DNA of 21,936 bases from a virus, in IMG/VR virus record IMGVR_UViG_3300045107_000061, positions 1 through 21,936 of that record. One strand, given 5' to 3'. The notes under the pieces were generated by a model that saw only the letters and a list, made by a program, of their open reading frames with translations, was not told where the DNA came from and made no database searches. The first letter of the stretch is position 1, and each line of letters opens with the position of its first letter. Positions 19,536 through 21,936 of this stretch are shown in pieces. The position numbers and the translations under genes were made by a program.

Positions 19536-19979
19536 CTAGGCTGCGTAAATCGCACCGAGCAACGCGACAAATTCGCAATTTGGGGGAAGGTTTTTCTTCC
19601 GCGAAAACTCCAGCCATTTATCAAACGAAATGCCGTCTTGAATTAGCTGGCGATTTGCGTATTGCGCGCGGACTCTCGCGATCTTTGCGTTGATAGGCTC
19701 GCGCGGCAGTTCCTCGCCCCGATATGTCAGCGTCCCCGCCTTCCTGACCTCGATTAAATCGCGCGCAGCCTTCACGAATTCCGCAACCGAAGGAGCGAAC
19801 GTCAGGCTTTGCCCCTCGACCAGACCGCAGACGAATTTACGGGCGGTATCACAGATTATTTCATCGGTGAACCCATCCAGTGCGTTCTCAAATGTGCGAA
19901 GCAAAAGATCATGGTTGCCCGCGCGCTGGGGGAATGAGTTCAATAACGTTGCTAGTGCCACTACCGATTGTTTTTCCAC
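19536..19979 (-). CDS. Unknown protein next to the replication initiator (147 aa, GTG start)
   Basis: I chose the GTG at 19979 because GGAG lies seven bases before it and an upstream start would lie even deeper inside the initiator gene. It already overlaps that gene by 71 bases. The product is helical: EKQSVVALATLLNSFPQRAG, a FTDEIICDTARKFVCG helix, VEGQSLTFAPSVAEFVKAAR and a basic C-terminal half. The GEGQS-like and FAPSVAEF elements recur in small proteins beside phage replication initiators of this kind (from memory). It could be a helicase loader partner by analogy with lambda P, but it has no ATPase motif and the assignment is a guess. Confidence 0.6.
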   Translation of the reverse strand: MEKQSVVALATLLNSFPQRAGNHDLLLRTFENALDGFTDEIICDTARKFVCGLVEGQSLTFAPSVAEFVKAARDLIEVRKAGTLTYRGEELPREPINAKIARVRAQYANRQLIQDGISFDKWLEFSRKKNLPPNCEFVALLGAIYAA

Positions 19980-20682
19980 GTTCTTTCTCCGCAAGCATGT
20001 CCATCGCTGCATCGACGATTGTTCGGCCCGGCGGCCCATGCGCGCGCGTGCGGTTCAGCAGCCATTCGGGCTCGAAACCCTGCCACCCGTTCGCAATCAT
20101 CGTGTCGGCGGCGGCGTTCGGGTCTGGCGCTCGCGCAAGCTTTGCCGCCAGCAAGCGGGCGGCGTGCGGCGTGAGCGGCTTCCGCAAACGCTGCCGGTGT
20201 TCGACGACCGCCTCAGCATGCGGGCGGTCGAGAACGGTTTCCAATTCCTCGCGCGGACTATTCTTTGGTTTACTGGTTATATTATTTAATTCTTCTAGTT
20301 CGTTCCGCGAGCGTTCCGTCGGCGTTCCGCGAGCGTTCCGTTTCGCGTCTCGCGGTGATTGATATTCGTCGTAGTTGCAAATAGTTATGCGTGTCGTTTC
20401 CCGTTCCGTTTTTAGAAAAATCATTCCCTCTTTCTCTAAAGTTCGCAAAAAGCGGGAAACGCGCCCCTTGGTATTCCACCCCCAAGCGCGGCGCATGAAC
20501 TCAAGCGCATGGGCCAGCTCTCCGCGCTTCAGGTCTATGAAGGTGCGACCCCGACGAATACGGGCATCTTGCCACGCGGCCTCGCTAATCAGCCAAAGCC
20601 ACGCCTCACGCTTGCTGTATGGCTCGCCCGACAGCAACTCGTGATAAAAAATCCCGCGATCAACAGCAAAATACCCGCTCAT
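19909..20682 (-). CDS. Replication initiator / replisome organiser, lambda O-like (257 aa)
   Basis: Residues 1-110 form a winged-helix domain of the phage O/replisome-organiser type: YFAVDRGIFYHELL, PYSKREAWLWLISEAAW (21-37), LKRGELAHALEFMRRAWGW (51-69), TKGRVSRFLRTLEKEGMI (71-88) and ITICNYDEYQ (98-107). A polar linker (108-145) follows. The C-terminal part has TPHAARLLAAKLARAPDPN and ADTMIANGWQGFEPEWL, typical of the helicase-recruiting half. The linker-coding DNA carries four phased CGTTCCG repeats and an AT-rich tract, so the gene probably contains its own origin. Its ATG overlaps a micro-gene stop by four bases. Confidence 0.8.
   Translation of the reverse strand: MSGYFAVDRGIFYHELLSGEPYSKREAWLWLISEAAWQDARIRRGRTFIDLKRGELAHALEFMRRAWGWNTKGRVSRFLRTLEKEGMIFLKTERETTRITICNYDEYQSPRDAKRNARGTPTERSRNELEELNNITSKPKNSPREELETVLDRPHAEAVVEHRQRLRKPLTPHAARLLAAKLARAPDPNAAADTMIANGWQGFEPEWLLNRTRAHGPPGRTIVDAAMDMLAEKERGKTIGSGTSNVIELIPPARGQP
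20261..20344. other. Putative phage replication origin inside the initiator gene
   Basis: It consists of an AT-rich tract at 20261-20299 (9 G/C in 39 bases) directly beside four 11-bp-spaced CGTTCCG repeats at 20301-20344. Read in the direction of the initiator gene, repeats come first and the AT-rich tract second, as in lambda ori within gene O. The function is inferred from this layout. Confidence 0.6.
20301..20344. repeat. Four direct repeats (iteron-like) with exact 11-bp period
   Basis: Units are CGTTCCGCGAG, CGTTCCGTCGG, CGTTCCGCGAG and CGTTCCGTTTC at 20301, 20312, 20323 and 20334. The 19-base string CGTTCCGCGAGCGTTCCGT occurs twice, 22 bases apart. A fifth CGTTCCGTTT lies at 20402. 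Eleven is not a multiple of three, so the repeats are read in shifting frames and do not make a protein repeat. About one helical turn per unit would place bound protein on one face of DNA. Confidence 0.85.
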
Positions 20683-20726
20683 GCCGCCCCCGCTTCGAGG
20701 ATGGCGCGGCCAGAAAATTTAATCAT
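20679..20726 (-). CDS. Micro-gene linking methyltransferase and initiator (15 aa)
   Basis: Reads MIKFSGRAILEAGAA. Its ATG overlaps the methyltransferase TGA (ATGA at 20723-20726) and its TGA overlaps the initiator ATG (ATGA at 20679-20682). GGAG stands eight bases before its ATG. It may act only as a coupling device that hands ribosomes to the initiator gene, which has a poor ribosome binding site of its own. A chance short frame is also possible. Confidence 0.4.
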   Translation of the reverse strand: MIKFSGRAILEAGAA

Positions 20727-21868
20727 GGCTGGCACTCCATGAAGGCTGAGATAAATTCTTTCGCCGGCCGCGGGTCGATCGCGTTACCGAAACCGCGCAA
20801 GATACCCACTCGGTTGGGAAACCCATCAACCAGCAGACGAATTCCGGGTTTAACGCGCCGCGCTTTTCCGTCGGCACCGAGCACCCATTCGAATTCGCCG
20901 CCATCGCGTGCTCGCGTATCTTGTTGTTGTTGCGCGAGTTCCCCGGCGGGTTGCTCGTCTCGGAGCCGCCCGCAAGGCTGGTCGGTGTCGGCCACACCGT
21001 CCGGCCGAGCAGGCCGTTCAGCGGCACCTTCGGCTGATAAACGCCGTCCTTGTGGACGCAGGTGGTGGTGGGCCACGTCGATTTCTCCGCGACCGTTTGA
21101 ATGTCCGCCCGGCATCCCGTCCGCGACGGGCCGCTCATATTCGCGCTTTGCGCTCGCGGGGCCGGCCACGTCGCCGTCGACGCGGCTTGCGCGGGCAGGG
21201 GCGTCCCACCCGCGCCGAACTTCATATTCGGGCCGCCCTTCGCTCCGTCCGTCGCTCTCGACGTCGACCAGTACGAGGTGATCACCTGGTCCGACAAATT
21301 GATCTGATGGCCGCTCGCAAGCCGCGCCCGCGCCCGCGCCGGATCGCTGTACTCGCCGCCCTTGGGCGCGGTGATCGTACGCCACAACCCAGAATCGGTT
21401 TCGCAAGTGGTCCGCACCCGCGCTCGCGGCCTCGAAAGGACGTGCCCCGACAACATAGTCCACGGAACCCAGGTCACTTCGCACAAGTCCGAGCCATTCA
21501 GCCGCGCTCGCAACCTGTTCTCCAAAGATAATTCCAGGGCGACAGTCGCGGATAAGACCGAACCAGACAGGCCAGAGGTGTCGATCGTCGGCAAAGCCCT
21601 TCCGCTTGCCCGCTTGCGAGAATGGCTGACAGGGGCAGCTTCCTGTCCAAACAGGTCTATCGTCCGGCCACCCTGCAAGGCGCAGCGCGTAACTCCATCC
21701 TCCAATGCCCGCGAAGAAATGGCACTGGACGAATCCCCAGAGGTCGTCGGGGCGGACATCGACGATCGAGCGTTCATCGACTTCACCAGGCGCGACGAGT
21801 CCTGCCCGGATAAGTTCTTTGAGCCATTGGGCTGCGAACGGATCGTTTTCGTTGTAATAGGCCGACAT
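20723..21868 (-). CDS. DNA (cytosine-5) methyltransferase, phage type (381 aa)
   Basis: It transfers a methyl group from S-adenosylmethionine to cytosine in DNA. Motif I is FAGIGGWSYALRLAGW (52-67). Motif IV is GSCPCQPFSQAGK (77-89) with the catalytic Cys80. The motif VI position is FGEQV (115-119), EQV instead of the usual ENV. Motif VIII-like is HLRNRFWVV (154-162). The C-terminal motif is RGFGNAIDP (358-366). The stretch between about 165 and 335 is the expected target-recognition region and is unusually rich in Arg, Gly, Asp and Glu. I start at MSAYYNENDP (ATG 21868), a typical opening for this phage subfamily, although no strong ribosome binding site is seen. The gene is locally very GC-rich. 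It could protect phage DNA from host restriction. Confidence 0.85.
   Translation of the reverse strand: MSAYYNENDPFAAQWLKELIRAGLVAPGEVDERSIVDVRPDDLWGFVQCHFFAGIGGWSYALRLAGWPDDRPVWTGSCPCQPFSQAGKRKGFADDRHLWPVWFGLIRDCRPGIIFGEQVASAAEWLGLVRSDLGSVDYVVGARPFEAASAGADHLRNRFWVVAYDHRAQGRRVQRSGAGAGAACERPSDQFVGPGDHLVLVDVESDGRSEGRPEYEVRRGWDAPARASRVDGDVAGPASAKREYERPVADGMPGGHSNGRGEIDVAHHHLRPQGRRLSAEGAAERPARPDGVADTDQPCGRLRDEQPAGELAQQQQDTRARDGGEFEWVLGADGKARRVKPGIRLLVDGFPNRVGILRGFGNAIDPRPAKEFISAFMECQP
20735..20738 (-). promoter_or_regulatory. Possible ribosome binding site of the 15-codon micro-gene
   Basis: GGAG lies eight bases before the ATG at 20726, inside the end of the methyltransferase gene. Confidence 0.4.
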
Positions 21869-21869
21869 G

Positions 21870-21936
21870 TCACATCGCACCTATCGCTTTCAGGTACTCT
21901 GTGACTTCGTTTTCATTATCGGCTACCATGTAGCGG
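21870..21936 (-). CDS. C-terminal end of an unidentified gene (runs off the right edge)
   Basis: The last 21 residues, RYMVADNENEVTEYLKAIGAM, are in an open frame ending in TGA one base before the methyltransferase ATG. The tight spacing matches the rest of the operon. Too short for identification. Confidence 0.55.
   Translation of the reverse strand, partial: RYMVADNENEVTEYLKAIGAM

Follow-up and report, generated by a model that had tools for sequence, protein, structure and literature searches.

The site described here is, with high probability, a phage theta-replication origin that is embedded in the linker-encoding part of the phage's own initiator gene and works as proposed below. It was found in a virus fragment of 21936 bases (IMG/VR record IMGVR_UViG_3300045107_000061), and the whole of this stretch is called the window. 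The site contained an array of four direct repeats, which very likely form the replication start site inside the initiator gene. Wherever the outcome for a sequence feature was clear, the initiator was of the SPP1 gp38 type, and on these features the origin was assigned to the SPP1 kind as a further member. The coordinates are listed in Table 1.

Table 1. Features of the putative origin and its surroundings, in positions of the window.
Feature	Position	Strand	Remark
Replication initiator gene P0001	19909..20682	-	ORF of 257 aa; matched DnaD-like/O-like phage initiators in PHROG
N-terminal DNA-binding domain, residues 1-108, SPP1 gp38-type winged helix	20359..20682	-	Structure model, fold and family matches
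Codons of predicted recognition helix, residues 72-84	20431..20469	-	AlphaFold2 model; K72/S76 covary with repeat core in relatives
Outlying iteron CGGAACG in wing codons T92-R94	20402..20408	-	68 bp upstream of the array on the gene strand
30-nt element ATAACTATTTGCAACTACGACGAATATCAA, codons of ITICNYDEYQ	20359..20388	-	Codon choice fixed in relatives
Iteron array, CGGAACG four times in steps of 11 bp	20301..20340	-	20334-20340, 20323-20329, 20312-20318, 20301-20307
Tract rich in AT and purine, presumed to serve as DNA unwinding element	20258..20300	-	AT content 77%; gene strand 70% purine
Perfect stem of 8 bp closing a 10-nt loop (CGACCGCC CGCATGCTGA GGCGGTCG)	20205..20230	-	Site of the hairpin in GC-rich relatives
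C-terminal half, presumed to contact a helicase or loader	19909..20262	-	C-terminal part of phrog_678; relatives with this half only
Downstream ORF P0002, whose position alone would suit a helicase loader	19536..20039	-	No confident family match

The repeat array was analyzed in the window and in shuffled versions of the gene. On the + strand, CGTTCCG started at 20301, 20312, 20323 and 20334, which reproduced the coordinates given in a preliminary description of this DNA. The perfect 19-base repeat at a distance of 22 bases was also recovered, with identical copies of the 19-mer CGTTCCGCGAGCGTTCCGT at 20301-20319 and 20323-20341. Read on the gene strand (minus), CGGAACG appeared four times in 11-bp steps and was followed by the AT tract. 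This order of iterons and AT tract, in the linker after the winged-helix domain, was as first described. No other 7-mer in the whole window had four equally spaced copies. In synonymous-codon shuffles of the gene, four equally spaced 7-mers were obtained in 0/3000 cases and three in 10/3000. The self-match of the window linker at lag 11 was 24/33. These results upheld the earlier claim that selection acted on DNA and not on protein, as shuffles that preserved the amino acids removed the period. CGTTCCG sites outside the array showed a strand bias, with 12 CGTTCCG on the + strand against 2 CGGAACG, possibly as a result of codon usage.

Relatives were gathered by protein similarity, and 51 N-domains with less than 90% identity to each other were kept. 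These non-redundant relatives came from several bacterial phyla, and period 11 dominated among them. In the linker past NYDEYQ, the self-match of the 51 relatives at lag 11 was 23.7 of 33, compared to 16.8 in synonymous shuffles, and lag 22 was second to it. Lag 11 was individually significant (at or below 1/60) in 40/51 relatives. At least 22 lag-11 matches were observed in 70.6% of the linkers, compared to 0/903 control windows, which were other ORFs of the same loci. Exact core spacings were 11 bp in 98 cases and 12 bp in 27 cases, and some relatives carried a 12-bp spacing or weak arrays (L266, L267, L036 and L275). The trend was also observed out of sample. In prophage loci of host genomes, 10 of 16 confident N-domains reached significance at a spacing of 11 or 12 bp. 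Repeats could be seen by eye in nearly all of them. The distinct short-iteron class suggested in the preliminary description was real and broader than proposed. The claim of an origin in the initiator gene also withstood a check of the relatives for initiators without the repeats and the AT tract. In L092 and L096, from Pseudoalteromonas and Vibrio phages, a 23-bp period with alternating cores was seen in place of a plain 11-bp array. The initiator of L089 (OP712483, labelled Pseudomonas phage PSV3) differed very little from the Staphylococcus phage PVL protein, and this record may be mislabelled or contaminated.

The repeats might also be explained by a low-complexity protein linker or by chance. 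The linker was hydrophilic and variable in the relatives, as this explanation would expect. However, 11 is not a multiple of three, the period was abolished by amino-acid-preserving shuffles, and none of the 903 control windows reached the level of the arrays. Chance and protein repeats were ruled out by the shuffles and the control windows, and this was the least credible of the explanations weighed here.

The initiator consisted of two halves with separate relationships. The N-terminal domain matched phrog_35955 and phrog_2514 (DnaD-like helicase loader), and the C half matched the C-terminal part of phrog_678 (O-like). The C-terminal half was joined to different N-domains in other phages. 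In relatives that shared the C half only and carried other N-domains, lag 11 was significant in just 3/17, and the array was ruled out as a property of the C-terminal half. Lambda O, 80alpha gp20 and TP901-1 rep were likewise without lag 11; TP901-1 rep lacks this N-domain and had no significant repeat lag. These results meant that the array belonged with the N-domain. In relatives sharing the C half (L001, L010, L011, L015, L016, L244 and L250), a hairpin was seen by eye at the C-half junction, with a variable stem and the near-constant loop TCACTTCGTTC. The window was without it.

Structure prediction was performed for the N-domain using AlphaFold2 with 25 aligned sequences, and the model had a pLDDT of 91.4. 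It showed the winged-helix order of helices and strands, with wing strands at 88-92 and 97-101 following the recognition helix, and a last helix at 104-107 in NYDEYQ. Fold matches in a viral library were named 'Replisome organizer' with a TM of about 0.9, and no close solved structure was found by sequence or fold search (best fold E 0.018). The N-domain of relative L003 matched SPP1 gene 38 by tblastn with an E of 1e-9, and also many Staphylococcus phages. In addition, phrog_2514 was matched both by the window N-domain (E 4e-17) and by SPP1 gp38 (E 2e-33). The DNA-binding half of the initiator is thus related to SPP1 gp38.

The downstream ORF P0002 gave no confident match to a family, loader or helicase in protein-family searches and had no relatives among viral contigs, and its structure model (pLDDT 40) was unusable. 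On these three results, P0002 had no support as a helicase loader. In three relatives, the next gene was a DnaB-type helicase or primase-helicase. GC skew of the 21.9-kb fragment was uninformative. A DNA cytosine methyltransferase gene (PF00145, phrog_363) was located just upstream of the initiator at 20723-21880 (-), and a second minus-strand frame was open across almost the same interval.

The placement of an origin within an initiator gene has precedents in SPP1, 80alpha, TP901-1 and Tuc2009 and is therefore not novel as such. SPP1 gp38 binds direct repeats of oriL, which lies inside gene 38 and adjoins an AT-rich unwinding element, and SPP1 replication has been reconstituted in vitro with a plasmid bearing oriL as template (PMC6316719; PMC3485210). 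The protein binding to the repeats and the replication from the origin have thus already been demonstrated for this homologue. The replisome organizers of the lactococcal phages TP901-1 and Tuc2009 bind direct repeats within their own genes (PMC8965321). ORF20 of phage 80alpha could not be complemented in trans, which suggested an embedded origin (PMC5499656).

The closest of the likenesses were those to SPP1 G38P (gp38) and oriL, which share the homologous winged helix and the position of the origin within the initiator gene (PMC6316719), with direct repeats and then an AT-rich tract right behind the domain. The period was shared as well. When it was computed here from the sequence of SPP1 gene 38, the best lag was 11 with 29/33 matches. 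The core of SPP1 was AAACGACA/AAAGACAC, whereas that of the window was CGGAACG. The C-terminal domain of SPP1 gp38 was TIGR02220 and that of the window differed. In SPP1 the genes of the loader gp39 and the helicase gp40 follow, whereas the next gene in the window was not recognisable as gp39. SPP1 also has a second origin, oriR; no second equally spaced array was seen within the 21.9-kb fragment, which is an incomplete genome. In Staphylococcus phage PVL orf46 and its relatives, the N-domain was homologous, and seven ACATCA cores at 11-bp spacing and a wing copy were found. PVL orf46 was unlike the window in its C-terminal DnaD domain and AT-rich genome. The 80alpha initiator was alike in the embedded origin suggested by genetics (PMC5499656), and a putative rep_origin is annotated there. 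However, its N-domain was of another family, with repeat lags of 12 and 24. The published identity of 80alpha gp20 to SPP1 gp38 is 26% (PMC5499656), and because gp20 (L259) did not match the N-domain model, this identity probably lies mainly outside the N-domain.

The preliminary description had called the site a lambda-type origin in the initiator gene. Its placement of an origin in the gene was strongly supported by the sequence features, but the lambda type was not, as the N-domain belonged to the SPP1 gp38 group. The likeness to lambda O and ori-lambda was one of layout alone, with DNA-binding domain, mid-gene iterons and AT-rich tract in that order. Lambda iterons are annotated as 18 bp at a spacing of 20-24 bp, in contrast to the 11-bp unit of the window, and have been described as imperfect inverted repeats (PMC7466680). 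The lambda O origin gave repeat lags of 20, 23 and 24 and no signal at 11. Lambda O matched phrog_277, its own family, and an N-terminal part of phrog_678, and the window N-domain matched neither of these; nor did lambda O match the N-domain model. Lambda O also touched phrog_2514, but mainly via the C half (residues 96-297). Lambda ancestry was ruled out by the different N-domain family and by the repeat lags.

The AT tract adjoining the array was the least stable part of the window. Nearest-neighbour energies placed the start of the least stable 40-mer in the 21.9 kb at 20258 (z = 4.4). The 39-base tract with nine G/C that had been described was confirmed from 20261, and the window minimum was eight, at 20259. 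In GC-rich relatives, AT rose from about 38% to 61% right behind the array, with 75% purine on the gene strand. These data bear on another explanation, in which the repeats are operator sites through which the protein represses its own operon and replication begins elsewhere. The winged helix of the N-domain is a kind found in repressors too, and initiators often autoregulate. However, the array was deep inside the gene, a search for promoter-like sites near it found none, the AT-rich tract stood behind the array across the relatives, and the SPP1 homologue uses its repeats as an origin. We considered the operator explanation improbable.

A fifth CGGAACG copy had been overlooked in the preliminary description. 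It is the outlying iteron of Table 1. In the relatives, an upstream core copy was found at -50 to -48 from the motif end in 20 exact cases, mostly 66-68 bp from the first array copy. This position corresponded to the wing tip in the structure model, which meant that wing residues were encoded by an iteron. Between the wing iteron and the array, the codons of ITICNYDEYQ were fixed (ATA, TGT, GAA, TAT) far above background in the window and the 51 relatives. In GC-rich relatives, Ile99 was ATA in 20/20, Glu106 was GAA in 21/21 and Tyr107 was TAT in 25/25, whereas 20 other conserved positions followed background codon use almost without exception. These fixed codons mark a putative 30-nt DNA element, ATAACYATCTGTAATTACGACGAATATCAG. 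The palindrome GTAATTAC was present within it in 24/51 relatives; the window element matched most of ATAACYATCTGTAATTACGACGAATATCAG, and the palindrome was absent.

Hairpins were observed after the AT tract. Counted over 27 GC-rich initiators, perfect stems of 6 bp or more at +90 to +150 past NYDEYQ numbered 19 against 4.3 expected, and stems of the same length inside the 30-nt element showed a weaker enrichment (7 against 1.3). The stems differed from phage to phage, mostly with 4-nt loops (for example L012, L013, L022 and L041). Taken as a single sequence, the 8-bp stem of the window could be due to chance.

The core hexamer varied by lineage, and its relation to the recognition helix was investigated. 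Cores were assigned by eye for clear cases only (n=44 sequences), because cores could not be called automatically on A-rich Gram-positive linkers. In a nearest-neighbour test of the 44, with neighbours of more than 60% identity left out, neighbours with the same core numbered 16.3 by recognition helix and 8.5 by the rest of the N-domain, compared to 3.3 by chance. In 33 sequences thinned to 60% identity, all 84 columns were compared with core positions 2-5 in an unbiased scan. The top pairs included K72 with core base 4 (z 4.8) and S76 with core base 3 (z 4.2). In the structure model, these two residues lie in the first turn of the recognition helix. High values were also obtained for L17 with base 5 and for L60 with base 4. 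An acidic residue 72 together with Arg 76 accompanied the ACGCA core in 9/11 against 0/33 sequences (7/9 against 0/24 in the thinned set), and Glu 76 accompanied AG at core bases 2-3 in 6/7 against 1/37. The correlation of core and helix distances by partial Mantel test was mixed, with P 0.012 for a thinned set of 20 sequences and 0.056 for one of 32, and P 0.05 and 0.15 once new loci were added. The position-wise scan is the sharper test, in which phylogeny is controlled by the 60% identity thinning alone. Since the specific rules were drawn up once the table was known, and common ancestry was only partly removed, the covariation was taken as a strong lead and not as proof.

A third explanation is that the repeats are a recombination site for swapping initiator halves and are not read by a protein. 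N and C halves do get exchanged at this linker. However, lineage-specific cores would hinder homologous exchange, and the cores followed the recognition-helix residues. This explanation was regarded as very unlikely.

On the preferred reading as an origin, the initiator winged helix would bind the 7-bp cores, and the 11-bp spacing would place one initiator molecule after another at intervals of one turn, all on one face of the DNA. Together with the outlying wing copy, which is about six turns upstream, the assembled complex would strain and open the adjacent AT- and purine-rich tract. The C-terminal half would then load the helicase, through a loader, on the opened strand. The present analysis showed the anatomy of the sequence, its recurrence under synonymous freedom, the linkage to the N-domain and the covariation between the core and residues 72 and 76. 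We infer the binding, melting and helicase loading for the present phage. A further proposal stands at about even chances. The gp38-type initiators may bear a recognition code in which residues 72 and 76 (i, i+4 on the recognition helix) specify core bases 4 and 2-3. The origin may be inherited and exchanged as one unit with the domain by which it is read, giving many mutually incompatible replicons of the same architecture. Movement as one unit would follow from the one shared gene and by the iteron copy in the wing codons.

No description of the 11-bp class architecture or of the core-helix covariation was found in the literature searched, which covered few subscription papers. One remark on one gene was extended to a class, the 11-bp-iteron origin tied to one winged-helix family in several bacterial phyla. 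The lambda label was corrected, as a similar layout can arise although the DNA-binding domain and the repeat length differ. As the 11-bp iteron is coupled to one winged-helix family across phyla, such origins become annotatable from sequence alone. With about ten natural cores and matching helix residues, the specificity between initiator and origin and its evolution in a single gene become directly testable.
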